Shown in pieces: positions 1,831 through 24,726 of a DNA stretch of 29,540 bases (positions are counted from its first letter, which is position 1; every line of letters starts with the position of its first letter). Below the pieces are notes generated by a model. It had not been told where the DNA came from and did no database searches. It worked only from the letters and a program-made list of their open reading frames with translations. This stretch comes from a virus. The DNA lies in the IMG/VR virus record IMGVR_UViG_3300017963_000619, positions 1 to 29,540 of that record; one strand, 5' to 3'. The position numbers were made by a program, and so were the translations under genes.

Positions 1831-2223
1831 TCAAATTCCATAGTCTTTTAGAAACTGTTTTACATTAAAATTGGGACATGTTTTACCATTTGTAAATTCA
1901 TAATGCCCATGTATAGTCACACCAGGATAAAGCATCTTTAAACTTCTCAGAAGATCTGTCAAAGTACTCCATTGTGGATCTGTAAAAGTATCAATACCAA
2001 TTAGACAAATACCTAAACTATTTCTATTATGTCCTACTACGTGTGCTCCTTTCCAATAATGAGGTCTACCTCTCTCAAGAGCACCATCTTCACAAATAAC
2101 GTAGTGATAACCGATTCCTGACCAACCTCTTGCTAAATGCCATTCGTGAATATCTTCAGCACCTGTACCATGGCCATGAGGAGAGTCTGAACAATGTAAT
2201 ACTATCTTTTCAATAATATACAC
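1831..2223 (-). CDS. N-acetylmuramoyl-L-alanine amidase (T7 lysozyme-like endolysin)
   Basis: A 130-residue zinc amidase of the Amidase_2/PGRP fold, similar in size to T7 gp3.5. It should cut the bond between N-acetylmuramic acid and L-alanine in peptidoglycan during lysis. The zinc ligands are visible: H10 in IVLHCSDS, H107 in HGHYEF and C116 in GKTCPNF. Y39 (GIGYHYVI) and K114 (K-T-C) occupy the places of T7 catalytic Y46 and K128. There is no signal peptide, so export would need a holin. The start is GTG, sharing one base with the upstream TAG stop (TAGTG), so translation is coupled. Whether it also inhibits an RNA polymerase, as T7 lysozyme does, cannot be judged because no polymerase gene lies in this window. 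Confidence 0.95.
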   Translation of the reverse strand: MYIIEKIVLHCSDSPHGHGTGAEDIHEWHLARGWSGIGYHYVICEDGALERGRPHYWKGAHVVGHNRNSLGICLIGIDTFTDPQWSTLTDLLRSLKMLYPGVTIHGHYEFTNGKTCPNFNVKQFLKDYGI

Positions 2224-2516
2224 TATTTATCCCTCATAGTAAATTTTATAGTTCTATCATCTTCTCTGCCATCATTAGTTACTATATGGCATGTTGCGTA
2301 ATAGATACGATTTCGATCTCCATCTTCTAACCAAATAGTAGTAGTAGTGTTACTAAAACTACTTAATACTTCTGATAAAGCACCTGGAGGAGTGATGTTC
2401 CAACTTGAAGCTGTTATAAAATCTCCAGTTTTCAACCAAGGAGACCAATCTATCGTATAATCTAATACCGCTTCTGGATCTTTTTTCTCTTCGAAAGTAT
2501 GGATAGGTTGTGCCAT
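2223..2516 (-). CDS. Putative phage fibre-tail adaptor-like protein, 97 aa
   Basis: A 97-residue protein with the pattern F-x-x-KDPEAVLDYTIDWSPWL, then D-F-I-T-A-S-S-W, then IWLEDGD, and a beta-rich end (ATCHIVTNDGREDDRTIKF). I recall this pattern from small phage proteins annotated as fibre-tail adaptor or unnamed structural proteins that sit beside tail-fibre genes. It follows the 1371-residue repeat protein directly and precedes the amidase, which fits a virion role. The pattern is recalled without a search, so the product name is tentative. A GGGGA ribosome-binding site precedes the ATG. Confidence 0.75.
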   Translation of the reverse strand: MAQPIHTFEEKKDPEAVLDYTIDWSPWLKTGDFITASSWNITPPGALSEVLSSFSNTTTTIWLEDGDRNRIYYATCHIVTNDGREDDRTIKFTMRDK

Positions 2517-2547: not shown

Positions 2548-5500
2548 TCATCTCTTTTGAAGTGGCCTATCACTTACTATATAAACTCTCAACTCGGAAT
2601 TAACAATATAGGTTCTAGATTCACTAGCTACCTGATAGATATTCTCTGAATTATCGCTTAAATTAAACTTCTTAGGTATATTAGAAGTTAATTGTAATTG
2701 TCCAAGACCAGGAAGAATTAATTTCTCATCGCTCTTCAGTATGAGAGGTTCTTCTTCTGTTATTGTAATACTACCAATACCTATATCTACAAACTTGTTA
2801 TCACTTAAGCTTGCTGCAGGTATGGTAGTACTTAGTGCTAAAGAAGTAGCATCAACACTTCTATAATGATTTGCTACAGTAGTAACTGTAGGTATTTGTC
2901 CAGTTAATGATAAAGATCCCTCATTAGGATTAGCATCTTTAGGATCTACATGGATATAGGTTAGTGGCTGGCCAGTTATTACTAATGAACCAGGATCTAC
3001 AGAGATTCTATGATCTGCTGTAGTATCTATTACTGGAGTTTCACTGGTAAGTGTTAAACTCTCATTTGAAGGAATTCTTCTAATATCATAAAGAGGATCT
3101 GGAGCATATCCAACTAGCTCTATAGAGCCTTTCCCGATATCTATAAATCTATTTGCTGTAGCATTTACTACAGGTTGATAACCTACTAATGAGAGAGCAG
3201 CTACTCCAGGCCCTGCTGCTTTGTTATCTCCAGCGGTAAGTAAAGGTTGTTGTCCAGAGATTGCTAAAGAATTGACATCTGGGGTAACAACTTTATTATC
3301 TATTCTTACAATAGTAGGTTCATAGCCTACTAGCGTTAAACTGCCTACCTGTGGTAATTCTGATAATGAAGTTAAAACTGTAGGAACATTGGTTGATAAA
3401 GTAAGAGATTCTTTTGTAGGATTACTTACTTTGTTATCACCAGTAATTAAAGTAGGTTGTTCACTAGTTAAAGTGAGTTCAGCCTTATTTGGAGCAACAG
3501 TTTTATTATCTGTCCATACTACTGTAGGAGTCTCTTCTGTTACGGTCAGAGATCCTACTGAAGGGTTAACAGATTGAGCTGCAGTAGCTGAAATTATTGG
3601 CTCATAGCCAACTAATGTCAAAATTCCTTTATCAGGGCTTTCAGATAATGAAGTTAGTATAGTAGGTTCATAGCCCACTAAATCTAACGTGCCTTTATCT
3701 GGTGCTTCTGATAAAGAGGTTAATACAACTGGTTGCTGACCAGCAAGTGTCAGGATACCTTTATTAGGAGACTCTGACAGAGAAGTGAGTATAGTTGGTT
3801 GCTTACCGTCTAATGTTAATGTTGCTCTAGTGGGGTTAGCTAGACGGTTATCTCCGGAAATTAAACTAGGTTGTTCTCCAGAAAGAGTAAGAGCTGTACT
3901 ATTCGGTTGAACTGTTTTATTGTCAGTCCAAACAACTACTGGTTCATAAGTTGTTAAATCAATTGTTCCTACAGTAGGATAAACAAATTGATTCGCAGTT
4001 GTTGAAACAGTTGGTTCGTAGCCTGTTAAAGTTAAATCTCCAGCATTGGGAGATTCTGACAATGAAGTTAGTATAGTGGGTTCATAACTAGTAAGCGTTA
4101 TAGAACCAACTGAAGGTGCTTCTGATAATGAGGTTAATACAGTAGGTTCATAACCTACAATATTTAAAATGCCTTTATTCGGAGATTCAGATAATGATGT
4201 TAGTACTGTTGGTTCATATCCTACTAAATCTAAAACACCTTTATTAGGCGATTCAGATAAAGAAGTTAATACCGTAGGAGTTTCTTCACTAAGAGTTAAG
4301 ATACCCTTAGTTGGATTTACAATTTTATTATCGCCAGCAATTAAACTGGGTTGCTCTCCTGATAAAGTAATTGATCCGACATTAGGGGTAACAGTTTTAT
4401 TATCTGTCCATACAATTGTCGGTTCTTGTCCAGTGAGTGTTAAAGATCCTACTGAAGGAGACTCAGATAGTGAAGTTGTGATAACAGGTTCATAACCTGT
4501 TAACGTCAAATCATCTTTAGTAGGATTAGCTACTCGATTGTCACCAGCAAGGATACTGGGCTGTTCACCGGATAAAGTAAGTGAGTTTACATTAGGTTGA
4601 ACAGTTTTGTTATCAGTCCAAACTATTGTAGGTGTTTCTCCAGTGAGAGTCAGATTACCTACATTGGGACTAGCTGATCGGTTGTCAGTAGTTGTAACTG
4701 TGGGTTGTAACCCGGTTAAAGAGAGTGAAGTAACTGCTGGTGAAACTTGTCCTAAAGTATATAAAGTTACTCCAATAGATTCTTCTTCATACTCCTGAGC
4801 TATAGGAGTTTGTTTTGTGAGTGATAAAGAACCTATTTGTGGTACTACTACTCCTAATGGAGCCAATATATTGGGTTGCTCTCCAGTTAAAGAAAGAGAA
4901 CCAGTATCAGGATTTACTACATGATTATCAGTCCTATCTGGTACAGGAGTATCACCAGTTAAAGTTAGAGACCCTACTCCAACAAGTGGGAAAGCATTAG
5001 CACTTCTAGTAACTAAAGGTGTTTCTTCAGTTATTTGAAGAACGTTTGTAGCAGGGTTTACTATCTTTTGATCAGTAGCAGAAAGCGCAGGTTCTTGACC
5101 TGTTAAAGCTAAAGAATTAGTGTTAGGTGAATTTACCTTGTTATCTGTCCATATTACTGTCGGTGTTTCTTCTGTTATAGAAAGAGTAGCTTCAGAAGGT
5201 GCTTTAGACAGGAAATTAGTAGTATTTATAATTGGTTCATAACCAACTAAATCTAAAGTACCTGTAGATGGACTTTCAGATAGAGTAGTTAATACTGTAG
5301 GTACTTCTCCAGTTAAAGCTAATACTTCTGAATCAGGTTTAGCTGTAATTGCAACAAAATCTACAGGCGTTTGACCTGTTAATGTCAAATCTCCAATGTC
5401 GGGAGATTTAGTAATGTTAACAGAAGCTGTTGCAGTAGGTTCATAACTAGTTAGTGTTATCTCCCCGACTACAGCAAAAATCTTTTCATCTTGTGTTATT

Positions 5501-6663
5501 ACTGGTTCATTTGTTGTTAAAGACAATTCACCAACAGAAGGTGAAGATGTCTTATTATCTGTCCATAATATTGTTGGTGTTTGTTCTGTAAGAGCTAATG
5601 TTTTAACATCAGGCGTCTTAGTATGATTTCCATCTGCTACTATTGTTATTCTAGGAGTATTAGTATAAGTACTAAGAGCACTAGCAATTATATCAAAACT
5701 GTATATACGAAAATCAAGTGTATCATCAGTAGTTACATCATCTCCGCGAATATCTAAAGCAATTAAAATTTCTGCTTCACTATTAGCATCTATATTTCCA
5801 GTATTACTGGCAGCAGTAGTAGTAGAAATAACATTAGTATTCGTACTAGTAAAAGTACCTGCACCTAATTGTTGAGTAGTTGTTCCAGCATTTGTTAAAG
5901 CGGAATCTACATAACCTCTTACATTACTAGTAATATTGGTGATAATAGTATATGCACCGCTATTCTTACTTAAAGCTATTCTCCAACCACTAGAGTGAGT
6001 TGCTCCACCACTTTCTTGTAATAAAAATCTAAGCTGAATATATGCATGACCACCTGCACCAGGATCAGTTAAATTTATATTAGTATTAAGAGCTTCTAAC
6101 CAAGTAGGAGAACTTTCTGAACTACCTGTTTCAACAAATCTAAAACTATCTTGATCAAGTGTTAATACAGCAGGAGCATCTGGTACAGTAAGACCTATAT
6201 AAGAAACAGCAGCCGTTCGTTGATTGGGTCCACCACCTGCCGTATGCGCTGTAATCCGTACCCGTACATCAGACCAATCGGTGATAGAAGTACTATTAAA
6301 GGTTACTGATGAGTTTCCAGCAAATGCTCCTTCATTTGCAGTAAGATCGGTCAACCCTGCTACGAGAGAAGCCCCCTCATAAACCTGTATATCAAGAGTT
6401 GATGAACCGCCGCCACTGCTAGGTGCAGGAGTACCCGCATCCTCGTCTGCCTGCGCTTGGTAAACAAGAAGCGTGCAAAGGCCTGATTGGGGTACAGAAG
6501 AGCTAAGGTCAGTTAATAAGACTTCAAACGATACATCAGAGCCGTTTACACCATACCAATAATCTCCAGCGTCTGGAGCAGTTCCATCGACAACAAGATG
6601 GGAATTAGTACTAGGTGTTCCCCCAGAAGAAATCTGGGAGATAGGGCGCATTGATTGGGCCAT
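2548..6663 (-). CDS. Large repeat-containing fibre-like structural protein, 1371 aa
   Basis: The protein has three parts. Residues 1 to about 160 are glycine/serine-rich and beta-like, starting MAQSMRPISQISSGG and ending near GLTVPDAPA. Residues about 160-348 form another beta-rich domain. Residues 349-1338 consist of 42 tandem units of about 21-25 residues with consensus P-x-x-G-x-L-x-L-T-G-x-x-P-T followed by a linker such as V-L-T-S-L-S-E or V-W-T-D-N-K. The last 33 residues carry a repeated S-E-x-R-x-Y-I-V motif, seen in phage virion proteins. No enzyme motif or signal peptide is visible. It is probably an elongated tail or head fibre. The first 160 residues are encoded by markedly GC-richer DNA (64 of 120 bases at 6361-6480 by hand count) than the repeat array, suggesting domain exchange. 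The ATG directly follows the stop of a 34-codon gene. Confidence 0.88.
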   Translation of the reverse strand: MAQSMRPISQISSGGTPSTNSHLVVDGTAPDAGDYWYGVNGSDVSFEVLLTDLSSSVPQSGLCTLLVYQAQADEDAGTPAPSSGGGSSTLDIQVYEGASLVAGLTDLTANEGAFAGNSSVTFNSTSITDWSDVRVRITAHTAGGGPNQRTAAVSYIGLTVPDAPAVLTLDQDSFRFVETGSSESSPTWLEALNTNINLTDPGAGGHAYIQLRFLLQESGGATHSSGWRIALSKNSGAYTIITNITSNVRGYVDSALTNAGTTTQQLGAGTFTSTNTNVISTTTAASNTGNIDANSEAEILIALDIRGDDVTTDDTLDFRIYSFDIIASALSTYTNTPRITIVADGNHTKTPDVKTLALTEQTPTILWTDNKTSSPSVGELSLTTNEPVITQDEKIFAVVGEITLTSYEPTATASVNITKSPDIGDLTLTGQTPVDFVAITAKPDSEVLALTGEVPTVLTTLSESPSTGTLDLVGYEPIINTTNFLSKAPSEATLSITEETPTVIWTDNKVNSPNTNSLALTGQEPALSATDQKIVNPATNVLQITEETPLVTRSANAFPLVGVGSLTLTGDTPVPDRTDNHVVNPDTGSLSLTGEQPNILAPLGVVVPQIGSLSLTKQTPIAQEYEEESIGVTLYTLGQVSPAVTSLSLTGLQPTVTTTDNRSASPNVGNLTLTGETPTIVWTDNKTVQPNVNSLTLSGEQPSILAGDNRVANPTKDDLTLTGYEPVITTSLSESPSVGSLTLTGQEPTIVWTDNKTVTPNVGSITLSGEQPSLIAGDNKIVNPTKGILTLSEETPTVLTSLSESPNKGVLDLVGYEPTVLTSLSESPNKGILNIVGYEPTVLTSLSEAPSVGSITLTSYEPTILTSLSESPNAGDLTLTGYEPTVSTTANQFVYPTVGTIDLTTYEPVVVWTDNKTVQPNSTALTLSGEQPSLISGDNRLANPTRATLTLDGKQPTILTSLSESPNKGILTLAGQQPVVLTSLSEAPDKGTLDLVGYEPTILTSLSESPDKGILTLVGYEPIISATAAQSVNPSVGSLTVTEETPTVVWTDNKTVAPNKAELTLTSEQPTLITGDNKVSNPTKESLTLSTNVPTVLTSLSELPQVGSLTLVGYEPTIVRIDNKVVTPDVNSLAISGQQPLLTAGDNKAAGPGVAALSLVGYQPVVNATANRFIDIGKGSIELVGYAPDPLYDIRRIPSNESLTLTSETPVIDTTADHRISVDPGSLVITGQPLTYIHVDPKDANPNEGSLSLTGQIPTVTTVANHYRSVDATSLALSTTIPAASLSDNKFVDIGIGSITITEEEPLILKSDEKLILPGLGQLQLTSNIPKKFNLSDNSENIYQVASESRTYIVNSELRVYIVSDRPLQKR
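2650..5619 (-). repeat. 42 tandem ~70-bp coding repeats in the 1371 aa protein
   Basis: I count 42 consecutive units, most 63-75 bp (21-25 codons), with one 35-codon unit carrying an insertion near 4745-4850. Each encodes P-x-x-G-x-L-x-L-[TV]-G-x-x-P-T, where the invariant prolines and glycine probably mark turns between short beta strands. Linkers fall into a few recurring types: VLTSLSE, VWTDNK, AGDNK/R and TTAN. Units sharing a linker type recur out of strict order (WTDNK followed by GEQPS and GDN appears several times), which suggests higher-order duplication of two- or three-unit blocks. Confidence 0.92.
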
Positions 6664-6951: not shown

Positions 6952-7413
6952 TTATGCCAAAGTAAAGATACCAGCAGTAGCCATCTGAATAGTCAGTGTA
7001 TTACCAGTAGTTACATCAAAAGGAGATGTAGATAACTGAGAATAACACAGGAGGAATCCAGAAGTAGCAGCGACAGACCTAATAATTACGCCATACTTCA
7101 CTGCGGAAATGTCAGTACCAGTAGCGGTAACAACAAGATCATCTGAATCAAATTTCTGAACAGATGTCGCAGTAGTAGTCCAGCTAGTGTTTGCCAGAAC
7201 CTCACCACCAGTAGTATAAGCACCACCAGTACATTGGTTGGAGATCTGTGATTGAATACTCAAAGTAAGGTTAGCAGCATCTTTAGTAGCAGATGTAGCA
7301 CTCTTATAAAGAGCAAGACGGAAAGAGTCACCGGAAAGGTTAATACCATCGGCAGACCCAAGAGCAAGTTTATGTTTGGCTTCGTGGTAGAAAGCCCAAG
7401 CAGTAGCAGCCAT
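6952..7413 (-). CDS. Phage structural-type protein, 153 aa
   Basis: The start (AFYHEAKHKLALG, then D-S-F-R-L-ALYKSATSA) and the later G-G-x-Y-T-T-G-G-E-V-L segment match, from memory, a family of small beta-rich phage proteins commonly found next to tail-fibre and tail-assembly genes. Their exact role is not established to my knowledge. The rest alternates short beta-prone segments and ends in an F-D-V-T-T-G-N-T-L-T-I strand typical of virion surface proteins. The ATG shares its first base with the upstream TAA stop (TAATG). A virion component is likely. Confidence 0.8.
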   Translation of the reverse strand: MAATAWAFYHEAKHKLALGSADGINLSGDSFRLALYKSATSATKDAANLTLSIQSQISNQCTGGAYTTGGEVLANTSWTTTATSVQKFDSDDLVVTATGTDISAVKYGVIIRSVAATSGFLLCYSQLSTSPFDVTTGNTLTIQMATAGIFTLA

Positions 7414-8882
7414 TACGCTAATTCCTCTAATGATGGGAGTCTAGCTCCCGTTTCTAAAATATAGGCGATTAAACCATCACCTTTTACTTCTAGAGAAAAT
7501 TCATTATCGGCTGCATCGAGGAGCTTCATCATTTCCCATGCTTGTAATGCCATCCAGGGTTGACATCTAAAGGTACGACCCTCAATCATGACAGAAATAG
7601 TTTCAGTTATTACATCATTCTCTGCTTGTTGATAAGCATGATGTTCATCGCCTATTATACACGAATCCATGCCATAAATGATCTGATTTTTAAAACCTAA
7701 TATACGCATTAATACAATTGCTCTAAGAGCTACTGTAGATCCTCCAGCACAAATGACATGTTCTGGATAATTTTCAGCTACAGCAGTTACAGCCTCTTTA
7801 GAAGGAGTGACATGCCAGTAAAAAGTTCTATCTTTTGGAAGATTTTCAAACATACTGGGATGACATTGTGAAGCTATGAAATAGAGACAATCATCTCTAG
7901 CAGGTTCTACAAAGCGCTTATTGTGTTCTCTAGCATCTAGAACACATTGGTTTACTCTAGTTATTCCATTATCTAGACACCAATTATAAGCACCATTGAC
8001 AGTAACTATCTTCATTCCATTTTTCCAATTCTCAATAATTTCTTCCTTGTAATCATTGAGAGAAGGTCCTCCACAAAGGACCATGATAGTTTTGTCTTCT
8101 TGTACTTGATGAGGTTTTATGTGTTGACAGCCCCATTCTGCATTTTTGATGATATTACTAACTATAACAGGTTGGCTAGTATTTACTTTCATCTCAGGGA
8201 GAGTTTGTCTCCAAGCTGTCACATAGAAATCTACGGCACTGCCTAAATTCTCTGAAAAGAAAATAGTACAACCTAACTCAAGAAATTTACTTTCCCACCA
8301 AGAGTAATCTTTAACAGTTAGATGTAGTGGTTGATTTAAATATTCAGGACCCATTACATCAGGTGTGGTAGAAATTCTAAAGAATACCTTTCTAGCTGCT
8401 CCTAGAATATTCAGAAGAACTTTGTCTACATCTTCTGTAGGAATATGCTCCATGACATCTGTGCAATAGCCATATTCTGCATTTATAGGAGCTTCTTGAG
8501 TTAGATCATGTTCTATAAATTGAAATTTAGTTGGATGATTCTTCATTGCCAACTTAACTTCAGGATCTAAGCAGTTAGGTGCAAAATCTAACATCTTGCA
8601 TTCCATACCACACATCATAGCCAACCAGAAAGAACCTCTTCCAGTACCACATCCGAAGTCAATTACCTGAGCACCTCTAGTAGGTTTTACTACTTGTGCA
8701 AATTGATTGCCTGCTAGCTCTCCAGGAGAGACCTTTCTATAGGCATCTACTGTCCACATCTTTGTGTATTTTTCTTTTTCTGTTAAATCGGACATTTTCT
8801 TTTTAGGTTTAGCAGATTCATCTATAGGTTTGATAGCTGTGGTAGGAGTTTCACCTGACATTCCAACTTTCTTAGTTAACAT
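7413..8882 (-). CDS. SAM-dependent methyltransferase fused to a DUF115 (Maf/MptE-like) domain, 489 aa
   Basis: Residues about 40-230 form a class I SAM-dependent methyltransferase. Motif I is VIDFGCGTGRGSFWLA (73-88), an acidic residue follows at D99, and DVMEHIP (142-148) corresponds to the usual D-x-x-E-H-I motif. Residues about 262-430 match the DUF115 family seen in Maf flagellin-glycosylation proteins and MptE-like pterin enzymes: VLCGGPSLNDY (268-278), TVNGAYNWCL (294-303), CAGGSTVALRA (378-388) and IYGMDSCIIGDEHH (402-415). The family suggests transfer of a nucleotide-linked group, and the pairing with a methyltransferase suggests tailoring of a glycan or virion surface. The substrate is unknown. 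The gene lies between two fibre genes and shares one base with the next. Confidence 0.86.
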   Translation of the reverse strand: MLTKKVGMSGETPTTAIKPIDESAKPKKKMSDLTEKEKYTKMWTVDAYRKVSPGELAGNQFAQVVKPTRGAQVIDFGCGTGRGSFWLAMMCGMECKMLDFAPNCLDPEVKLAMKNHPTKFQFIEHDLTQEAPINAEYGYCTDVMEHIPTEDVDKVLLNILGAARKVFFRISTTPDVMGPEYLNQPLHLTVKDYSWWESKFLELGCTIFFSENLGSAVDFYVTAWRQTLPEMKVNTSQPVIVSNIIKNAEWGCQHIKPHQVQEDKTIMVLCGGPSLNDYKEEIIENWKNGMKIVTVNGAYNWCLDNGITRVNQCVLDAREHNKRFVEPARDDCLYFIASQCHPSMFENLPKDRTFYWHVTPSKEAVTAVAENYPEHVICAGGSTVALRAIVLMRILGFKNQIIYGMDSCIIGDEHHAYQQAENDVITETISVMIEGRTFRCQPWMALQAWEMMKLLDAADNEFSLEVKGDGLIAYILETGARLPSLEELA

Positions 8883-8906: not shown

Positions 8907-11900
8907 TTAAATAGGATTCCATACATATAATGTGGCAGCTCCTGGAGCTAATCCTCCAAAATTTACCGTAATAGTGATAGTAGTTGCATCTTCATCTGTT
9001 ACCAGTTGTTCTACTCTGGTTCCTCCTTGTTCTAAGAAGACTCTTTTACCAGAAGCTGCTACAGTACCACTGATTGTTATTATAACTCCTGTTTGGCCTT
9101 CGTAGATAGTTTCATCTATATCTACATCAGTAATTGTCCAACCAGTAGCACCACTAGAAACGGAAGGCAATACTCCAGTTATTATTAATGAGTTACCATC
9201 TGGGGTTATTGTTATACCTGTGACAGTATACTCATAAGCACCTATGTCCCAGGTACCTGTTCTTGTATTCCCGGCAATGTCGTCATCGAAACCGAGCGTA
9301 GCAGAAAGGTCGATGCCATTGTCGATCAGCGCACTGCCGCTGGACGGGGAATAATCGCCGCCTGCAAAGTTGTTAAAATCCGTAGAGTCAATAGTTTGCT
9401 GGTTTGAGCCAAATGCCCCTGTACTGCTAAATGCGTTATAGCCGCTACTCGCGTTAGGTGTTGTCACTGACGTGTCGTCAACCGGGCCATAAAAAACATT
9501 ATTTCGGCAGATTATATCAGTGGTCGTAGCCCCTACTCCCCACGAAAGCGAATTTGACGTTCCAGTTCCACAGATAAGTGTATTGTTGGAAAAAGGCATC
9601 TCACCTCTCGGATCAATAACACAAGCAGTGCCACTTGCGGAGATGATTAGCGAATTTCTAATGTACGAAGGGGCATTGGGTACAGCGACTCGCAAGCCCC
9701 TTTCTCCACCAGCAGTTCTAATAATGCAACGCTCAAGTACAAAATTAGTAGGGTACAATCGCAACCCTTGTGCCCCCGCGCCAGTACTGCTGTTGGTAAA
9801 TTGTATGTCTCTAAGTTCTGTGTATGGTTCGTAAATCTGAAAAGCAACACTTATACTGTACGAAGTGGTAATTTCTGCCCCGCCACCAACCACACCGCCA
9901 TGCTCTTCACCGGCACCTGCCTTTATCTCAATAAAACATAATGCATCCGTGTCCCAATCAGTGAGAGACAGCGTGCCCGATTCACTGATTGTGCCAAAAA
10001 TCTCAAAAGAACACTGTTCACCCAGCGCGACAAGATTACCCTGTTCCGATGATTCGGCTGTACTGAACAATGTATAATCTTTGCCCGATCCGACGGTCAC
10101 AGTATTTATATCAAACTTATATGCGCCAATATCAAAGCTGCTGGCATACCGTGTCGCGGTGCCGCGTATGTCGTCGGTAAACGTGCTGCTCAGGTCTACG
10201 CCCGCGTTGTATAGTGCGGAGTCGGCGTTGATGCGGTAGTCGCCATTGGCGAAATCCACGAAGTCGTCGGCGGTTATGCCGGTGATTGGGGAAGTACCCA
10301 ATGCTGATGTGTCACCCGATGCGTTATTTGAGGCTATTACGTTAGTATATAGATAGTCTGAAGTATATGCTCCATAAGCAACACAGTTTCTTACAGTTGT
10401 TGGAGAACCCCCGGAATCAGACACATTAATCCCATACCTTCCACCAATTGTAGTGCAATTGTAGAATTGTATATTCGGGTCAAAGTTTCCTGCGGCAATG
10501 CATGATCCAGAGATAGACCCTGACTCATGAATCACTAACGAATTGCGCACAACATTATTATCATCAGTTACGTTAATCCCCGTATCCGCGGATGTGCTGT
10601 TACTAATAACAATTACTCTGTCCACAACATTATAATTTTGTATAAGCGATATTTCTTGTCCCTGAAACCCAGTTCTTGTATTGCGGACTTCTATACCATA
10701 AATTTCTGTATAAGCAGCACTAACTCTAAATACTTGCCCAAAATTCGAACCAATATCAGTACTAATATAAAAACCATCACCCGGCACGCCGTTGTGTTCA
10801 TGTCCTGCCGCCGCTTTAACTGTGATGTAAAAACTGGCATCAACAGTCCAACCGTCAATGTTTACAGAATCATCTAACCCACTTGGCCAATCTGCGTAAC
10901 AATCTAAAATATGCTTATCGCCAGCCGTTGCAAGGTCTGTTTGTTCACTTTCCTCCCAAGTAGCAATTGACGAGTAATCCCCGCCTGTAGATTTTAGAGT
11001 GCGGAGTATGTAGTCAGTATCGAACGCGCCTATCGACCACTGGGTTCTGGTTTCACCGCGCAGGTCAAGAGAACCTATCGTTGCAGAAAGGTCTGCACCA
11101 GCGCCCCACAGATCGCCAGTATTTATTGGGCGATAGCCGGTCGCGTGTAAGTCTGTGCCGGAAGCAATGCCCGTTATGGTGCCGATGCTTAACGTTGACA
11201 CGGAGGTATCACCGCTGGCGTTGTTAGACGAGTTCGTTGTGTCGAAGGTATTAAAAAAATCAGCGTTGTTATCAAACGCCACGCAGTTTTTAGCTATTGC
11301 CCCGGTATAACCATCAAAGCCCCGGTCTGCGCCTATCGCAGTACAGTTGTAAAAATGAGTAACATCCTGTGTAGCAGCAAAACCAGTGACCGTGCCGACG
11401 TTAGTCATAATGGCAAGGCAGTTGTAAAATCTTGATGGGGTGCTATCCGTGGGTGAATCTAAAGAGGCCCAAAATCCGGTATGCGTCCCGCCAGTAGCAT
11501 TAGGCGCACTGGCAATGCACCGTTCAACTAAACACCCTTGGTTTATCCTGAATATCTCCAGCGAAGTAAACGCCGCTTCAACGCAAGAGGCTTCTATGTC
11601 CTGAATTACCGTGCTGTCTTGGCTGACCTCAAAAACATTAACAGACCCTGCTGTCAGTCGTTTCATATGAAAACCAGCACCCGGCACGCCACCATGCCCC
11701 TCACCAGCGGCAGCACGAATTGTGATGTAATACGTTGGACTTGTCGTCCAGCCATTAAGGTAAAGCGCCTCATTTAGCGTTCCATCACTTTGCCAGTTGC
11801 CTTCGATTGTGGTGCCTTTGTAGCATTCAAGAATGTGCTTGTCGCCGCTTGCGGTCAGGCTTGTTTGCTCGGTCTGCTCCCACGTAATCATGCTGCTGTA

Positions 11901-14900
11901 ATCTTTGCCCGTTGAGCCCAGCGTGCGCAGTATGTAGTCCGTATCGAACGCACCGATGGACCAGACTGATCTGGTTTCGCCACGCAGGTCATCGGTAAAG
12001 GTGCCAGATAGATCGGCACCTGCGCCCCACAAGTCTTGCGCGTCATCGGGCCGATAGTTGTCGTTGGCGAAGTCTACGAAATCTGAGGAATCTATAGTGA
12101 CCTGATTACTACCAAACGCGCCAGTGCTCCCGAATGCGTTGTTCGTGTTTGTGCCACCCCCATCCGCATCCGTGTCTGCTGCGCCATAGAACACGTTGTT
12201 TTGAAAGTTTGCCGTGGGCTTTGTTGTTGTAGTGACATCAAACGTGCCGATCACCGTGTTGTTATATATGTTTCCGGCGTTGTCGCGCCCATCTATCTCA
12301 AGCGCCAAATATGCGGGGTTGGCATTGTATATTAAGCAATTATAGACATTGTGCGGTCCACAGGCGTTTAGCCTTAATGCAGACCCATCTGATCCAGTGT
12401 TACCTATTATGCAGCGATGGAACTCCTGATCGTCGTGGACGTTATTGGTTAATACTGCCGGAAACGGCACTGCGCTTGTCATCTCAATTTCGATATCATA
12501 AAACCTACAGTATGGTTGGTTTACTGTGAGCGTACTGGGGGTGGCGCCGTAAACGAGCTTAAACCCTGCGCCAAGGACGCCTTTGTGTTCGTGCCCAGCA
12601 GCAGCTTTTACGGTAATGGTGTTTGTCGCAGTTGTTACCCAATCCTGTATTTCAACATGCTCATTAAGCCCACTGGGCCAATCCGCGTAGCACTCTAAAA
12701 TGTGTTTATCACCGCTTGTGGTAAGATCAGTTTGTTCAGTGCTCTCCCACACAGAGATACTGCTGTAATCTCCGCCAGTGGACTTCAGGGTATAGATCAC
12801 ATAGTCCGAGTCATACGCGCCGATACTCCACACATCACGCGGCCTGCTGCGTATATCGCTAGTAAAATCAGTAGACAAGTCTTCACCAGCACCCCACAAG
12901 TCACCAGCTTCTAGTGGGCGGTATGTAGTGTTGTAATCTGTACCGGAGGCGATGCCTGTGTAAACAGTAGTGCCGGGAGCGGAAATATCTACGCTGGCAT
13001 TGTAATCTGTGCCGGTTCCATATGATGTGGCGGCAAAATTAGTGCCGCCGCCTAATCCAGCACAATTTTTAACTATAGCAACAGCACTTCCAGAAAAATC
13101 AGTTCCGGCAGTCATTGCAGAAGTACAGTTGATGAATTTAGTTGGATCACCACCCGCATAAAAGCCAGTTTTTAAGTTGTTCGGTGTGTTATAAGCCAAA
13201 CAATTTATGAATACGTTGTAGTCTGCTTCAGAGTTAAAGTCGGACAAAAACACTCTAACTGTTCCCGCAGTACTGTTTGGCATAGAGCCGATGCAATTCT
13301 CGATGGTTGAATAAAAACCAATACGAAAAACGCCAGTGCCTGTATAACCTGCGAGCGTGTTTGCAGCTTCAATGTTTTGTATTTTGCTATAGAGTTGATT
13401 GACTATTAATACCGCATTAAGCGTGTCAAGATCGGACGCAAGCATAAAGCCAGTGCCCGGTACGCCATTGTGCCCTTGACCGGCTGCCGCACGAATTGTC
13501 ACAAAGTAGCTACTGTTTGTTGTCCAGCCTATTAAATGTACTTCTTCATTTAGTGACCCATCCGCTGCCCAGTTGCCAGTAATAGTTGTGCCTTTGTAGC
13601 AGTCGAGGATATGCTTATCACCAGTGCTGGTCAGGTCTTTCTGCTCGGTCTGCTCCCAAGTAACAATTGATGAATAATCCCCGCCTGTGGATTTCAGGGT
13701 GCGGAGTATGTAATCGGTGTCGAACGCACCAATGGACCAGACTGATCTGGTTTCGCCGCGAATATCATCCGTGAACGTACCTGAGAGGTCTGCGCCAGCG
13801 GCCCACAAGTCCTGTGTATCTACCGGGCGGTAATTGTCGTTGGCTGTGTCCACAAAGTCGGCTGTGGTTATGCCGGTGACCGTGCCAATGCTCAGTGTGG
13901 ATACGGAGGTGTCTCCGCTGGCATTATTTGATGAAACTGTATTAAACGCAGTACCGGTAAAATCAGCAGTTGAATTATTATAAGCCACACAATTTCGAGC
14001 GTAAGCAGATTCAAGACTGTTTGTACCCGTGCCGTTTGATCTAAAACCATAGGAGCTATTAACAGCAGTGCAATTGTACCAACGTGAGCCGTAAAAGACA
14101 GTAGTCATATTAAATGCTACATGTGAGTCAAAAGCTAGGCAATTGGTCATCGTGCAGCGCCTGGTTGAAAACGCCCCATAATTTATATCAGTATCATTCG
14201 GGCAACTGGCTATGCACCGATTTAAAACTATAGTGTGCGTAGTGGTAGTCCCATTATAAAAACCTCTCGCTTGACTAGAAGCAAGATTTTCTACTTCGAT
14301 GTCGTTAATTACAGAATAGTCTTGCCAAACACTAAATATTGAACTTCCGACACTGCCTACCCTAGACATAAAGAACCCCGTTTTTGACATGCCCTTATGT
14401 GCATGTCCTGAAGCGGTTCTTACGGTCACGTAGTATGAAGAACTAGTTGTCCAACCATTTAAAGAAACTGAATCGTCAAGCCCACTCGCCCAGTCGTTAT
14501 AGCACTCCAATATGTGTTTATCACCACTTGCAGTAAGGTCTGCTTGCTCGGTGCTCTCCCACGTACTCATCAGGGAGTAATCGCCCGTTCCATCACGCAA
14601 CGTGCGGAGAATATAATCAGTATCGACCGCACCGATGGACCACTCAGTTCTGGTCTCGCCTCGAAGGTCATCGGTGAAGCCTGCGGTTGCTGAAAGGTCC
14701 GTGCCAGTGCCCCACAGATCACCAGTTTCTATTGGGCGATAGCCGGTAGCGAAAAAATCTGTGCCGGAGGCGATGCCTGTGTAAACAGTAGTACCCGGCG
14801 CACTGGTGTCTCCACTGGCATTATAATCGCTCGTTGGGTCCACATTAGCGTCAAAATCTGCTACATCAAACCCAGAAGCGACACAATTTTTATAGATAGG

Positions 14901-16418
14901 TTCATTGCCGGTAGCAGATGCATTATACCCATAGTCTGCTACGTTTAAATTTATAGCGGTGCAGTTATATACAGCATGGGCACGAAAATCGTCATGGTAT
15001 AAGGCACTTGATCCTGTACTACCTGCCGCATCAACAAGCATTAGACAGTTATAGATTTCCCCGTCTGTGGCCGTGTCGTTTTGTATACAACGCGCTGTAC
15101 CAGAGGCATTAGCATTATTGGCGTATAGCCAAAGGTTTCGCAAATAGGTTGGATTGCCCTGTAGCCGTAAACAACGATCATACCCAGTATGACTACCTGC
15201 GATAGAAAACCCTATATCAGAAACTATGGTGTGTGCTTGCGCTAACTGTAAAAGATAACGGGAAGTCGATACGCTAGTAGATGCCAAATAAAAACCTTCA
15301 TCTACTACACCTTTATGACCCTGCCCAGCAGCAGCTCGGATTGTTATAAAATTTGTGGCACTAGTGGTCCAACCCCCGAGTGTTATATTATTTTCTACGA
15401 GTCCACTCGCCCAATCTGCATAGCATTCCAGAATGTGCTTGTCGCCGGTACTAGTCAGGTCTGCCTGCTCGGTGGACTCCCACGTAGACATTGACGAATA
15501 ATCCCCGGCACTGGAGCGCAAGGTGTAGATCACATAGTCTGAGTCGTAAGCACCGATTGACCATACATCGCGCACCTGCTGACCGCGTATGTCGCTGGTA
15601 AACGTACCTGAGAGGTCGGTGCCTGCGCCCCACAGATTGCCAGTGTCGAGTGGGCGATAGGTAGTGTTGTAATCTGCGGAAGTGATGCCAGTGACTGCGC
15701 CTGTGCCGGTTGCGCTGGTATCCTCAGAGGCACAGTAGGTCATTGTTACTGCCGCGCCGGAGTCACTGCCAGCCAAATTATAGCCCCCGGTTGTTCCCCC
15801 AATAGCCAAACAATTGGTTAATGTTACAGCGTCTGAATCGGCACGTGAAAAAGAGTAGCCACCTCCGACAAACGTACAATTTTGAAAGGTATTTATTGCG
15901 CGTGTATAAACTGTCGAAGAACTCGTAGAGTCAGTCTTAAACAGGCAATTTTGGTAGATATTGTTGTCATAACCCGATGTGACAATTTGAAGGGCGTTGC
16001 CACCTGTTGCACTTATTATACATTCATAAAATTCAGCGAAATCATTAGCTACCCCTATCACATAACCTGCTGAAGCATTAGTATTTTTGATCTCCAGTTT
16101 TGAGCACACTACATATGTATTTTGTATTCTGAGCGTGTAGCTTGATGCACTTGAAGTAAATACCGCTCCACCACCGGGGACGCCGTTATGGTGCTCACCA
16201 CTGCCAGACGTTATGGTTACTCTGTTACTTGCGCCTGTTGTCCAGTCATTAACGATAAGGGCGACAGCACCTTCGTCCACCGTGCCGTAGATTTCAAACG
16301 TCATGGTATTGCCGTCACCCACGAGATTCCCGTAGGTGCCCTGCTCGGATGCTTCAGCAGTTACCAGTGAAGTGTAATCATAACCACTAGCACCGACAGT
16401 GGCGACAATATCAGCCAT
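8907..16418 (-). CDS. Giant modular beta-helix tail fibre/spike protein, 2503 aa
   Basis: The protein is built of eight consecutive right-handed beta-helix modules of about 290-310 residues, beginning near residues 1, 293, 603, 904, 1207, 1496, 1803 and 2106. Internal modules open with T-L-K-S-T-G-G-DYSSMSTWE, then GDKHILECY and GWTTS...ITIRAAAGHEH-x-GVPG. They continue with repeated Y-N-C / x-N-C-x-A rungs and close with LWGAG-x-DLSGTFTDDIRGE then WSIGAYD-x-DY. That closing resembles the D-x-x-G-x-R...D-I-G-A-Y-E motif of choice-of-anchor Q proteins. Modules 1 and 8 differ in opening with V-G-S-G-x-DYT and E-x-SEQG. The last 105 residues hold one copy of the short P-x-x-x-L-x-I-T-G repeat and an IPT/TIG-like domain. 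There is no signal peptide or enzyme motif. Host-receptor or polysaccharide binding is the likely role. The start overlaps the upstream stop by one base (TGATG). Confidence 0.9.
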   Translation of the reverse strand: MADIVATVGASGYDYTSLVTAEASEQGTYGNLVGDGNTMTFEIYGTVDEGAVALIVNDWTTGASNRVTITSGSGEHHNGVPGGGAVFTSSASSYTLRIQNTYVVCSKLEIKNTNASAGYVIGVANDFAEFYECIISATGGNALQIVTSGYDNNIYQNCLFKTDSTSSSTVYTRAINTFQNCTFVGGGYSFSRADSDAVTLTNCLAIGGTTGGYNLAGSDSGAAVTMTYCASEDTSATGTGAVTGITSADYNTTYRPLDTGNLWGAGTDLSGTFTSDIRGQQVRDVWSIGAYDSDYVIYTLRSSAGDYSSMSTWESTEQADLTSTGDKHILECYADWASGLVENNITLGGWTTSATNFITIRAAAGQGHKGVVDEGFYLASTSVSTSRYLLQLAQAHTIVSDIGFSIAGSHTGYDRCLRLQGNPTYLRNLWLYANNANASGTARCIQNDTATDGEIYNCLMLVDAAGSTGSSALYHDDFRAHAVYNCTAINLNVADYGYNASATGNEPIYKNCVASGFDVADFDANVDPTSDYNASGDTSAPGTTVYTGIASGTDFFATGYRPIETGDLWGTGTDLSATAGFTDDLRGETRTEWSIGAVDTDYILRTLRDGTGDYSLMSTWESTEQADLTASGDKHILECYNDWASGLDDSVSLNGWTTSSSYYVTVRTASGHAHKGMSKTGFFMSRVGSVGSSIFSVWQDYSVINDIEVENLASSQARGFYNGTTTTHTIVLNRCIASCPNDTDINYGAFSTRRCTMTNCLAFDSHVAFNMTTVFYGSRWYNCTAVNSSYGFRSNGTGTNSLESAYARNCVAYNNSTADFTGTAFNTVSSNNASGDTSVSTLSIGTVTGITTADFVDTANDNYRPVDTQDLWAAGADLSGTFTDDIRGETRSVWSIGAFDTDYILRTLKSTGGDYSSIVTWEQTEQKDLTSTGDKHILDCYKGTTITGNWAADGSLNEEVHLIGWTTNSSYFVTIRAAAGQGHNGVPGTGFMLASDLDTLNAVLIVNQLYSKIQNIEAANTLAGYTGTGVFRIGFYSTIENCIGSMPNSTAGTVRVFLSDFNSEADYNVFINCLAYNTPNNLKTGFYAGGDPTKFINCTSAMTAGTDFSGSAVAIVKNCAGLGGGTNFAATSYGTGTDYNASVDISAPGTTVYTGIASGTDYNTTYRPLEAGDLWGAGEDLSTDFTSDIRSRPRDVWSIGAYDSDYVIYTLKSTGGDYSSISVWESTEQTDLTTSGDKHILECYADWPSGLNEHVEIQDWVTTATNTITVKAAAGHEHKGVLGAGFKLVYGATPSTLTVNQPYCRFYDIEIEMTSAVPFPAVLTNNVHDDQEFHRCIIGNTGSDGSALRLNACGPHNVYNCLIYNANPAYLALEIDGRDNAGNIYNNTVIGTFDVTTTTKPTANFQNNVFYGAADTDADGGGTNTNNAFGSTGAFGSNQVTIDSSDFVDFANDNYRPDDAQDLWGAGADLSGTFTDDLRGETRSVWSIGAFDTDYILRTLGSTGKDYSSMITWEQTEQTSLTASGDKHILECYKGTTIEGNWQSDGTLNEALYLNGWTTSPTYYITIRAAAGEGHGGVPGAGFHMKRLTAGSVNVFEVSQDSTVIQDIEASCVEAAFTSLEIFRINQGCLVERCIASAPNATGGTHTGFWASLDSPTDSTPSRFYNCLAIMTNVGTVTGFAATQDVTHFYNCTAIGADRGFDGYTGAIAKNCVAFDNNADFFNTFDTTNSSNNASGDTSVSTLSIGTITGIASGTDLHATGYRPINTGDLWGAGADLSATIGSLDLRGETRTQWSIGAFDTDYILRTLKSTGGDYSSIATWEESEQTDLATAGDKHILDCYADWPSGLDDSVNIDGWTVDASFYITVKAAAGHEHNGVPGDGFYISTDIGSNFGQVFRVSAAYTEIYGIEVRNTRTGFQGQEISLIQNYNVVDRVIVISNSTSADTGINVTDDNNVVRNSLVIHESGSISGSCIAAGNFDPNIQFYNCTTIGGRYGINVSDSGGSPTTVRNCVAYGAYTSDYLYTNVIASNNASGDTSALGTSPITGITADDFVDFANGDYRINADSALYNAGVDLSSTFTDDIRGTATRYASSFDIGAYKFDINTVTVGSGKDYTLFSTAESSEQGNLVALGEQCSFEIFGTISESGTLSLTDWDTDALCFIEIKAGAGEEHGGVVGGGAEITTSYSISVAFQIYEPYTELRDIQFTNSSTGAGAQGLRLYPTNFVLERCIIRTAGGERGLRVAVPNAPSYIRNSLIISASGTACVIDPRGEMPFSNNTLICGTGTSNSLSWGVGATTTDIICRNNVFYGPVDDTSVTTPNASSGYNAFSSTGAFGSNQQTIDSTDFNNFAGGDYSPSSGSALIDNGIDLSATLGFDDDIAGNTRTGTWDIGAYEYTVTGITITPDGNSLIITGVLPSVSSGATGWTITDVDIDETIYEGQTGVIITISGTVAASGKRVFLEQGGTRVEQLVTDEDATTITITVNFGGLAPGAATLYVWNPI
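10100..15540 (-). repeat. Six tandem ~0.9 kb internal beta-helix modules
   Basis: Module openings lie near bases 15540, 14610, 13708, 12800, 11933 and 11010, and the diverged last module opens near 10100, giving a period of about 870-930 bp. Module borders are conserved in DNA as well as protein: bases 11944-11980 and 13720-13757 are nearly identical, and a 27-bp stretch near 12945-12971 recurs near 14762-14789. Borders are GC-rich (37 of 60 at 12001-12060 and at 10141-10200) whereas module cores are AT-leaning (22 of 60 at 14221-14280, 21 of 60 at 10321-10380). Counts were made by hand. Confidence 0.88.
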
Positions 16419-17014
16419 CAGTCAAGCAATCCGTCCCGCAGATAGTTGCCGACCTGTGCCGCCGTGCCCTCAACATAGCCGCCATTGGCTTCAAGATAGG
16501 TGCGCCCTGCCGCGTTGATGTACCAGCGACGACGACGGTATGACCAGTCGCGCACCGCTTGATTAATCCGCTCGATGATTTCATCCCGAGCTGCCACCGG
16601 AGCAGTGATGGTAAAAGTGAAAGTGGTAGTAGTAAGACCAGTACGAAGAGCATTGGCAGTGGGATACTCTGCATTAATCTCACCCAACAACTCATCAACT
16701 TTCGCTGCTTCAAATTGATTTCCTCCACTGGCGGAGACCATAGTAGAGGTTACTTGAATAGTACGGTCATCACCAGTAGCAGCAATTTGTTGAACATCTG
16801 GATCATGGTTCCACGATTGGAGATAAGACTGAACTTCTGCCAGTGTTTTATCCGTCACCTTGATATGCCAGAAGTTACCGGCGCTGATCACCTCCTGACT
16901 GCCGAACGTGTGATCGTCGGCAAAGGCTTGAACTATTTCGCCCTGCCGCCAAAGGCCGGGTTCACCTTCATCAGTCTTGTAAGGGGGTTTCGCTCTTGCG
17001 AGTAGTATAGGCAT
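16418..17014 (-). CDS. Phage structural-type protein, 198 aa
   Basis: The N-terminal 70 residues (starting MPILLARAKPPY, then W-R-Q-G-E-I-V-Q-AFADDHTFGSQE and F-W-H-I-K-V) resemble the conserved N-terminus of unnamed phage proteins encoded next to tail genes, in which a D-D-H-x-F-G motif recurs. Residues about 84-145 are beta-prone (TIQVTSTMVSAS; TTTTFTFTITAP), and the C-terminal part carries a basic WSYRRRRWY segment. The ATG is preceded by AAGGAG. The stop shares one base with the giant fibre start, so the two are co-translated. GC content is uneven: high at both ends (39 of 60 at 16501-16560, 34 of 60 at 16861-16920) and lower in the middle (24 of 60 at 16741-16800). Confidence 0.75.
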   Translation of the reverse strand: MPILLARAKPPYKTDEGEPGLWRQGEIVQAFADDHTFGSQEVISAGNFWHIKVTDKTLAEVQSYLQSWNHDPDVQQIAATGDDRTIQVTSTMVSASGGNQFEAAKVDELLGEINAEYPTANALRTGLTTTTFTFTITAPVAARDEIIERINQAVRDWSYRRRRWYINAAGRTYLEANGGYVEGTAAQVGNYLRDGLLD

Positions 17015-22526: not shown

Positions 22527-24293
22527 TTACAAATCATCTATATCATCTATTTCAAATTGTTCCTCCTTATACTCTGTAGTTGGTGGTTCTTGAACAATTC
22601 TATTTGTTTTTCTAGAATAATAAACATCTGGTACAGGACCAGATAAACCGGAGAATCTACATTTTAGTATTGCCATTTTGATTGTATTTCTTTCAAGATC
22701 ATTTTCTGCATTTAGATTTCTAGCAAAGCCAATAACATTCATTGCTACTTGCTTGATAGCACCACTGCCTTTGAGATCATCTAAAGATGGTAATATGCCA
22801 CTCTCAAAGGATTTACCGCTATCTCCCATTTTTCTCAACTGGGAAATTACATCAATATGTACTTCATTCTGTTTAACTAGCTTACGCATCTTGTTCATAA
22901 TTTTGTCAATATTAGCATTCTCTGAACCATGCTCTAGGGTCTCAGAAGCTAACAGGGTTAAGTGATCTAATACGATCCACTTACAACCCATTAGTACCAT
23001 TTGTTCCATTGTATCTAACAATTTAGACTCAGAATCATAATGATTCAATACACGAATCCTATCGTTATGAAACAGATGATCAAAATATGGTTTCATTTCT
23101 GCTGGTGTAATTGTTTCTTCAGACGGGTTTTTGTTCATAGCAACTGCACACAAGTGTCTAGCAGTCTCACCAGGATTTTCTTCTAGTGCTATGATCCCAA
23201 TCTGGTCATCAGTTGTTTCTCTAGTATGTAGAATAATCTCTCTGACAATTGTGCTTTTGCCACTACCTGTGCCAGAAGCCCAGAGAGTTATTTCACCTAT
23301 TCGTCTGCCTTTCAATTTGCTATTTAGCTGATTTACGCATACTGGGTAAGGAATAGATTCCTTCTCATTGAAATCAATTACCTCTTGCCAGAGTTCTTCT
23401 GAAGTTAAAATACCTTCAGGAGACCAATACTCAGCTTCCCAAATAATCTTCATTATCTTTTCTAAATTTACTTGTATTGCTTCTTTCTTAGAACATTCTT
23501 CATATTCTAAATTGAGAATATCATTTGCATCTTTCGCTATATCGAATTTAGCTATTTTAGTCTTATCAACACCGATTATTCTGGCATGGGCTTTAGCTGC
23601 ATTTTGGCCTTGTTCTGCTTCATCTTGATCATAGAATAAAACTACTTCATCAAAAGATCTTAAATAGTCTCTCGCTTCAATTATCGCTTTGTCGGACCCA
23701 ACACCGTTAGGTAATGACACTACTGGATACCATTTCTTGTAATAATGATAACTAGCGTAGGCTACAGTAAGACAATCAAGTTCACCCTCAGTGACTACAA
23801 TTCTCTTTCCGCCTCTAGCAAATTTTGTTTGACCAAATAGACCATGAATAGTACCTTTAGGTATCGTATAAAAGGTCTTTGGTAATTTTCTTACCTTATA
23901 TTTAGCTACATTTCCGTTAGCATAATAAGGATAGTAATAAGCATCAATTTCGCCATCTAGATCAAAGGATGCTTTTACATCATAAAATTCTGCTACTACT
24001 GTAGGTATCCCTCTTGCTTTATCGCCTTTACAAGGATATTCTAATATCTGTTTAATTTCTTTATATTCTTTCATATCACTCACTTTGCTAGTTACTTTAT
24101 CTTCTCTAGTACTAGCTGCTGTTTCCATATCATCTCCTGTAGGGATTTCATTTTCGGGCCAAAAGTACTTACAAGAAAAACAGTAAGCATGATCGTTGTA
24201 GATATGGTATGCATCAGAAGATCCGCACTCTTCAGGAGGCCTAGGACAAGGTAGTTTTCCCTTAACTAGAACGGAATCTCTTCTTTCTCTCAC
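22527..24293 (-). CDS. Bifunctional DNA primase-helicase (T7 gp4-like), 588 aa
   Basis: The N-terminus carries a zinc site, C16-x6-C23-x14-C38-x2-C41, used for template recognition by primases. A TOPRIM primase domain follows, with catalytic E169 in VVTEGELDCLT and D222/D224 in FYDQDEAEQG. The C-terminal half is a DnaB-type RecA helicase with Walker A ASGTGSGKST (339-348), E371 in ALEENPGE and the ISQLRK and DLKGSGAI loops further on. This matches T7 gp4, which primes and unwinds at the fork and moves with the polymerase encoded upstream. The start is GTG at 24293 with AAGGAG 8 nt upstream; the first ATG would remove the zinc site. The acidic C-terminus (EQFEIDDIDDL) is as expected for binding the polymerase. 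It overlaps the GIY-YIG gene by 32 nt. Confidence 0.95.
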   Translation of the reverse strand: MRERRDSVLVKGKLPCPRPPEECGSSDAYHIYNDHAYCFSCKYFWPENEIPTGDDMETAASTREDKVTSKVSDMKEYKEIKQILEYPCKGDKARGIPTVVAEFYDVKASFDLDGEIDAYYYPYYANGNVAKYKVRKLPKTFYTIPKGTIHGLFGQTKFARGGKRIVVTEGELDCLTVAYASYHYYKKWYPVVSLPNGVGSDKAIIEARDYLRSFDEVVLFYDQDEAEQGQNAAKAHARIIGVDKTKIAKFDIAKDANDILNLEYEECSKKEAIQVNLEKIMKIIWEAEYWSPEGILTSEELWQEVIDFNEKESIPYPVCVNQLNSKLKGRRIGEITLWASGTGSGKSTIVREIILHTRETTDDQIGIIALEENPGETARHLCAVAMNKNPSEETITPAEMKPYFDHLFHNDRIRVLNHYDSESKLLDTMEQMVLMGCKWIVLDHLTLLASETLEHGSENANIDKIMNKMRKLVKQNEVHIDVISQLRKMGDSGKSFESGILPSLDDLKGSGAIKQVAMNVIGFARNLNAENDLERNTIKMAILKCRFSGLSGPVPDVYYSRKTNRIVQEPPTTEYKEEQFEIDDIDDL

Positions 24294-24726
24294 AAGAAAT
24301 ACTCCTTTGTATCAACGTTGGAATTAACTCTTTACGCTTTCTGATACCTAGACATTTAGGTAATACATATATGTCTGGAGCATGATCGTTATAAAAATTA
24401 TTATGTATTAGTGCGTCATACTGCATAATCAATTTGACTTCCCAATAGTAAAGATCTGTTCGATCCTCACATTCCATCAAACAATAAAAGTCAAAAGATT
24501 CTTTACCAAACTCTTTTATATCTGCTAGTAGTCTTTTACAACTTGATTTATAGTTACGCCAAGCATTTTGATGTCCGTAAGTTTTACTTCTTTTCTTTCC
24601 TGCTTTTCGGTATTGTTTTCGACCTATATATGCATGACCATTTGTTTTATTTACTATCAAATAAATAAATCCAAAATAAGATTTATCATCCATCTGATGA
24701 GTAAAATTCCAATGGCCATTATCCAT
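24262..24726 (-). CDS. GIY-YIG family endonuclease, 154 aa
   Basis: The catalytic core is recognisable: FIYLIVNKTNG (20-30) stands for GIY, YIGRK (33-37) is the YIG strand with R36, and E96 in YYWEVKLIMQYD is the metal-binding glutamate. An N-Y-K-S-S-C-K-R-L segment and a helix typical of phage GIY-YIG proteins lie between. There is no DNA-binding domain of the kind seen in homing endonucleases, so it may be a resident recombination or junction nuclease rather than a mobile intron-type enzyme. Embedding between the exonuclease (1-nt overlap) and primase-helicase (32-nt overlap) supports a stable role in replication. Confidence 0.85.
   Translation of the reverse strand: MDNGHWNFTHQMDDKSYFGFIYLIVNKTNGHAYIGRKQYRKAGKKRSKTYGHQNAWRNYKSSCKRLLADIKEFGKESFDFYCLMECEDRTDLYYWEVKLIMQYDALIHNNFYNDHAPDIYVLPKCLGIRKRKELIPTLIQRSISCERKKRFRSS

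Follow-up and report, generated by a model that had tools for sequence, protein, structure and literature searches.

The window, a 29,540-nucleotide stretch of viral DNA that is a complete IMG/VR entry and may itself be a fragment of a phage genome, encodes a protein of 2503 amino acids made of eight related modules and a C-terminal domain. We consider it probable that this protein is a giant tail-associated adsorption array, expanded from one module to eight, whose cores are exchangeable through conserved caps. Among relatives at the homologous locus only one module is present, and replacement of the core between matching flanks is directly visible in a pair of single-module relatives.

Module layout and predicted fold

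The ORF was translated from ATG to stop, and module boundaries were set by cutting after each SIGAYD/DIGAYE-type motif (Table 1). The modules, of about 300 residues, end at residues 292, 599, 900, 1203, 1492, 1800, 2101, and 2396, with lengths of 289–308 residues (292 for M1 and 295 for M8), and are followed by the 107-residue C-terminal domain. The six internal modules, M2–M7, share 37–51% pairwise protein identity. The two terminal ones are more divergent, M1 and M8 being 24–37% identical to the others. The first-pass annotation had described six internal modules of ~0.9 kb in tandem, bracketed by two related terminal modules, and our segmentation gave the same count and frame. The self-comparison that it proposed was done as a direct-repeat search, which returned six in-register copies at a spacing of 867–924 bp.

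Each module can be divided into an N border (~80–90 residues), a core (~140–155 residues) and a C border (~65–70 residues). Among M2–M7, the N borders are 55–73% identical and the C borders 47–75%, compared to 16–36% for the cores. The window cores are mostly no closer to one another than to the cores of other phages; the M6 core is 33% identical to that of the relative L023, against 17–36% to its sibling cores.

Table 1. Features of the array locus (aa, amino acids; GC3, GC content at third codon positions).
Feature	Positions	Strand	Basis
Array protein of eight putative beta-helix modules, 2503 aa	8907..16418	-	ORF, translation, module segmentation
M1, N-terminal module; N border divergent, C border of internal type	15543..16418	-	alignment
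M2	14622..15542	-	module segmentation
M3	13719..14621	-	module segmentation
M4	12810..13718	-	module segmentation
M5, apparent mosaic; C border starting as in M8/L040 and ending as in M3	11943..12809	-	segmentation and triplet test
M6, structure-modelled module	11019..11942	-	segmentation and AlphaFold2
M7; internal-type N border, C border about equally near L023/L024 and M3	10116..11018	-	segmentation, alignment
M8, C-terminal module	9231..10115	-	module segmentation
M1 variable core	15738..16163	-	
M2 variable core	14826..15290	-	
M3 variable core	13929..14372	-	
M4 variable core	13005..13445	-	
M5 variable core; the sole core not AT-leaning at third positions	12144..12560	-	
M6 variable core	11226..11669	-	
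M7 variable core	10329..10769	-	
M8 variable core	9441..9875	-	
C-terminal domain, 107 aa; GC3 0.168, as low as the rest of the phage	8910..9230	-	
End of M3 C border, matching end of M5 C border (11944-11980)	13720..13757	-	
29-bp exact repeat in M4 C border; twin in M2 C border (14764-14792)	12943..12971	-	
GC3-rich block, partner gene and module array	9248..17014	-	change-point scan
Partner gene, 198 aa, directly upstream of array gene	16418..17014	-	
Fibre-tail adaptor gp77-like gene, PF23148, podophage family, E 5.5e-26	2223..2516	-	

An AlphaFold2 model of M6, built from a 13-row alignment, is a right-handed parallel beta-helix with repeated short strands (pLDDT 81.7, pTM 0.89), in which the borders look like beta-helix caps. 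When this model was searched with Foldseek, pectin methylesterase and pectate lyase came at the top, with rhamnogalacturonan lyase and K1 capsule lyase among the first ten; the scores were modest (best PDB E 2.8e-3, TMq up to 0.52). In the viral library of Foldseek, M6 matched phage beta-helix proteins. A model of two modules was poor (pLDDT 58). No convincing Pfam or PHROG family was found for the module, no Pfam family for the whole protein and no enzyme family, and none of the modules matched BACON down to E 1. The C border resembles choice-of-anchor Q (NF041518, with an IGAYE ending), at 21.5 bits for M8 and 18.8 bits for M7. The tested modules stayed below the curated cut-off of 25 bits and M3 gave no match; a distant relative, L009, scored 43.9 bits.

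With the PF23148 adaptor gene nearby, the array can be assigned to a cluster of tail-adsorption genes. From the fold and this neighbourhood we infer that the cores are receptor-facing, and adsorption to a surface polysaccharide is a likely activity of the protein. It would contain eight tandem right-handed beta-helices, in which the N and C borders act as helix caps and the core is a stack of rungs carrying the binding surface, probably for a bacterial polysaccharide. When 19 of the 24 proteins of this fragmentary contig were scanned, no Pfam match to an invertase/recombinase or a reverse transcriptase was found.

Relatives, partner gene and base composition

Queries against viral contigs were the complete protein, an alignment of the modules, the C border, and the N border of a sister lineage (see below). 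About 50 distinct metagenomic proteins were recovered, each with one module of the array type; neither a second copy of this module nor an intermediate module number was found among them, and no close relative of the eight-module array appeared. A search with the DNA polymerase likewise gave no close relative of the phage itself, only two distant phages being matched. On genome contigs, the C-border profile identified only four bacterial MAG loci, with one array-type module per ORF. In the isolate-phage collection, the whole protein, the L055 and L058 modules, the partner gene and the C-terminal domain had no match, and M7 had two weak partial ones. The module family is mostly metagenomic and nearly absent from the isolate-phage collection searched. 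In the module tree, M2–M6 appear to group together, and the tree does not settle whether all eight modules form a single clade.

Homologues of the partner protein, 38–56% identical to it, are encoded directly upstream of a one-module gene in L055, L040/L041, L001, L032, L029, and L024. In L091, the module gene behind the partner homologue is truncated by the contig end. At the partner locus of these seven distinct phages and the window, the copy number is one in six, cut by the contig end in L091, and eight here; the module gain that had been suggested for this gene is supported by this comparison. The array would descend from a one-module gene that normally lies directly behind the partner gene, its module number having been raised by tandem duplication.

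Some relatives have features of their own. A short contig, L041, carries two separate module genes (3–419 and 3615–4712), possibly a gene-level duplication. The 1512-residue proteins of L014/L015 were considered as multi-module candidates and rejected, as they contain one array-type module among other beta-helices. In L058 (9158–10558), a very long tail rich in serine (SSSSSSSSF/E repeats) comes after the module; L076 has a similar tail, as does L078 with S/P/A repeats. The four MAG loci (L082–L085), on contigs of Parcubacteria, Zambryskibacteria and Omnitrophota, encode one-module proteins, the L085 frame being 3082 residues long.

Spectral analysis of GC along the array gave a power of 16.4 at ~300 codons, compared with 1.8 in block shuffles (p 0.0005). 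For GC3, the corresponding values were 20.3 and 2.6, with none of the 2000 shuffles reaching the observed power. The module-phase oscillation that the first-pass annotation had claimed, and proposed to check in sliding windows, is therefore real and lies mostly at third positions. Its extremes of 60% GC for borders and 35–37% for cores are found as single 100-bp windows but not as averages, which are ~50–55% and 43%, respectively. Pooled over modules, GC3 is 0.47 in the N border, 0.38 in the core and 0.57 in the C border; in all other genes of the window it is 0.16–0.34, save the partner gene (0.47). The border-minus-core difference in GC3 was +0.139. When synonymous codons were shuffled within each amino acid, the difference was +0.017 ± 0.019 (maximum 0.083 in 5000 permutations). 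Hence, amino-acid content fails to explain the gap.

At codon positions 1 and 2, the borders were GC-richer than the cores in the window and in all the five single-copy relatives tested, so that this part of the contrast follows protein composition. The third-position contrast was also present in single-copy L001, L025, L069, L070, L071, L073, L075, and L077, but was absent or reversed in single-copy L002, L023, L074, and L079; in the window, GC3 of the M5 core is as high as that of the M5 borders. Periodic GC had been read as a sign of recombination. With positions 1 and 2 following protein composition and the GC3 contrast missing in some relatives, that argument is weak, and the GC pattern alone is no demonstration of recombination.

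A change-point scan returned a single GC3-rich block (GC3 of 0.449, compared with 0.205 outside it). The lower edge of this block falls ~6 codons or less from the end of M8 and the upper one at the start of the partner gene. The partner and module genes were probably acquired as one block from a GC-richer source. The block would then have been fused to a C-terminal domain whose composition is phage-like.

Core replacement in relatives and possible older traces in the array

In a sister lineage of single-module genes, the N borders are 55–94% identical, the cores are mostly different, and the C border is shared again. Two blocks of DNA are shared by L075 and L077. One, of 815 bp and 90.1% identity, stops where the N border ends; the other, of 1634 bp and 88.0% identity, starts with the C border. 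The intervening ~650 bp gave no blastn match, and the two cores have 30% amino-acid identity with a codon agreement of 0.42. The L077 core is 61% identical in amino acids to that of L073; the L077 N border is 93% identical to that of L075 and 79% to that of L073. In a windowed comparison, identity fell at the cap–core edge and returned at the C border. It is clear that in L075/L077 conserved flanks surround a non-homologous or highly diverged segment, that is, the core has been replaced between matching flanks. In another pair, L069/L070, the only common DNA is 245 bp of the N border (88%) and 83 bp of the C border (94%). Codon agreement differed between borders and core (Fisher p 9e-6 and 7e-5).

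Almost all pairs within the family had more variation in the core than in the borders. The earlier claim that cores are swapped in from other sources holds for L075/L077, where the L077 core is like that of L073, but not for all close pairs; L029/L032 and L001/L055 co-diverge without core exchange and without excess synonymous core distance, the L001/L055 core changing faster in amino acids. As the caps are conserved on both sides of the core, homologous recombination within them can replace the core and leave the helix unbroken. Such cap-mediated replacement would be what is seen in the single-module relatives, the array keeping older traces of it.

The longest exact repeat in the array is 29 bp. 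The ends of the M3 and M5 C borders, identical at 36 of 37 positions, are among the best patches. Whole junctions have 44–68% DNA identity, or 57–68% without the divergent 7|8 junction. "Near-identical", as the borders had been described, therefore applies to short patches and not to whole junctions. At identical residues, codon agreement was 0.406 in N borders (0.364 expected) and 0.404 in C borders (0.365 expected); for cores it was 0.385, with 0.388 expected from codon usage. Synonymous sites of the array are close to saturation and give no sign of recent exchange between modules. Since this holds for the borders, their likeness comes mainly from protein conservation. The proposal that borders act as recombination sites is supported in the sister lineage but, as stated for the window array, finds no support in view of the synonymous saturation.

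Traces of older events were also looked at. There were 45 repeated 15-mers, whereas 300 synonymous permutations gave 6.3, and at most 29. The six longest DNA matches all fell within borders, had differing partners and were 2 or 4 modules apart; adjacent borders were less alike than expected (P 0.017–0.028 in two amino-acid tests). A two-module duplication unit is not claimed, the even–odd test giving P 0.1–0.2. The neighbour-site compatibility test gave p 0.0003 or less for M1–M8 and a marginal 0.03–0.05 for M2–M7. In triplet tests M5 and M4 scored as mosaic, each with a corrected p of 0.042 that barely survived correction. In M5, the early C border is like that of M8 and L040 (NAF.STGAFG.NQ) and is followed by an M3-like end. 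M1 resembles M8 in its N border (51%) and M4 in its C border (70%). The C border of a module was correlated with the N border of the next (r 0.63, p 0.014 for all seven junctions, falling to r 0.41, p 0.083 when the last is dropped), and the N and C borders of one module were uncorrelated (r -0.15). The clustered identical patches and the mosaic tests point to recombination in the array that would be old and patchy, not ongoing.

Alternative readings and known systems

Part of this evidence would also fit an array formed by duplication and divergence only, in which the tandem copies are old, the caps are under purifying selection, and the cores drift or diversify with no exchange. Near-saturation of synonymous sites in borders and cores alike agrees with it, as do the two co-diverging pairs, the faster amino-acid change of the L001/L055 core, and the general excess of core over border variation. 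Against it are the clustered DNA-identical patches with different partners, the combination in M1 of an M8-like N border with a C border like those of M2–M4, the change of type within the M5 C border, and the core replacement that relatives do display; we regard it as a serious but rather unlikely account. A little less likely still, in our opinion, is that high border GC3 marks recombination hotspots, through GC-biased gene conversion, for example, or through borders circulating among higher-GC phages. The gap far above permutation is in its favour, and the pattern recurs in L069, L070, L071, L073, L075, and L077, whose borders are shared at the DNA level; its absence or reversal in four other relatives and the border-like GC3 of the M5 core are against it, and codon usage or co-translational folding could also be the cause.

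The array may not bind receptors at all. It could be a long fibre with a structural or decorative role, or a bacterial-type surface protein, in which length matters and not specificity. Array-type modules do occur in bacterial MAG proteins, no enzyme family was matched, and the array is known from its sequence alone. However, diversification and replacement of cores between conserved caps fit a selected surface, and the adaptor homologue lies in the gene neighbourhood, which makes this reading improbable to us. We give similarly little credence to a stronger form of the adsorption proposal, a multi-specificity device in which eight cores stand side by side and are replenished through the caps from a pool of single-module phages, with cap GC3 as the footprint of conversion. 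The adsorption array with exchangeable cores is the reading that we retain. Core swapping would be a plausible means of altering which bacteria get attached to.

Phage receptor-binding proteins are known to change by C-terminal swaps. The crAssphage tail-associated protein has an array of eight BACON domains, with fewer or single domains in other lineages, and these arrays are ascribed to internal duplication, plus horizontal transfer in other lineages (PMC6949934). The likeness to our case is an eight-domain array in a (here presumably) tail-associated phage protein, with fewer or single copies elsewhere. However, BACON is a small Ig-like domain, whereas the window unit is a beta-helix of ~300 residues with conserved caps and a replaceable core, and the text of that paper does not contain the word recombination. 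In Kuttervirus tailspikes, a conserved motif was proposed as a recombination site (PMC8432352). There also, beta-helix receptor-binding modules move between proteins at conserved sequence, but the proposed point of exchange flanks a C-terminal module on a single side, and the tailspike genes are separate; in the window family both caps are conserved and the middle is exchanged, and the window copies are in tandem in one gene.

A study of domain shuffling in phage receptor-binding proteins places pectin-lyase-like domains, together with other receptor-binding ones, among the classes for which recent exchange is best evidenced (PMC10684548). In examples from that study the N-terminus stays almost identical and the C-terminal portion is swapped; in the window family, the exchanged segment lies inside a single fold. 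Distant, unrelated Alteromonas phages share a tail-fibre gene and a chaperone gene as a unit (PMC10579305). Like the module gene, that fibre gene travels with a partner, but the partner is different and only a knob domain is duplicated; whole modules do not form tandem arrays there. That receptor-binding modules are exchanged is already well documented (PMC10684548, PMC8432352); what differs here is a whole-beta-helix unit with its middle exchanged between two conserved caps, combined with tandem expansion. In pairs such as L075/L077, the breakpoints of natural exchange are directly readable, and the array protein splits into units that can be expressed singly.

Other genes of the window were also recorded. 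A 1371-residue protein of short repeats (SPSVGSLTLTGQEPTI-like) is encoded at 2548–6663, with a 66-bp tandem array at 4120–4278. It is 27% identical to the product of L007 10564–13458; in L028 and L029, the module is followed by repeat tails of a similar kind. Adjoining the array, 7413–8882 encodes a 489-residue fusion of a methyltransferase domain and an MptE-like domain, 47% identical to L007 1144–2577; a phrog_644-type gene follows there, as it does at 6952–7413 in the window. A tRNA-Leu (TAA) gene lies at 43–129, close to the contig end. Between the primase-helicase and 5'-3' exonuclease genes, at 24262–24726, is a gene for a SegE-like GIY-YIG endonuclease, possibly a homing endonuclease.
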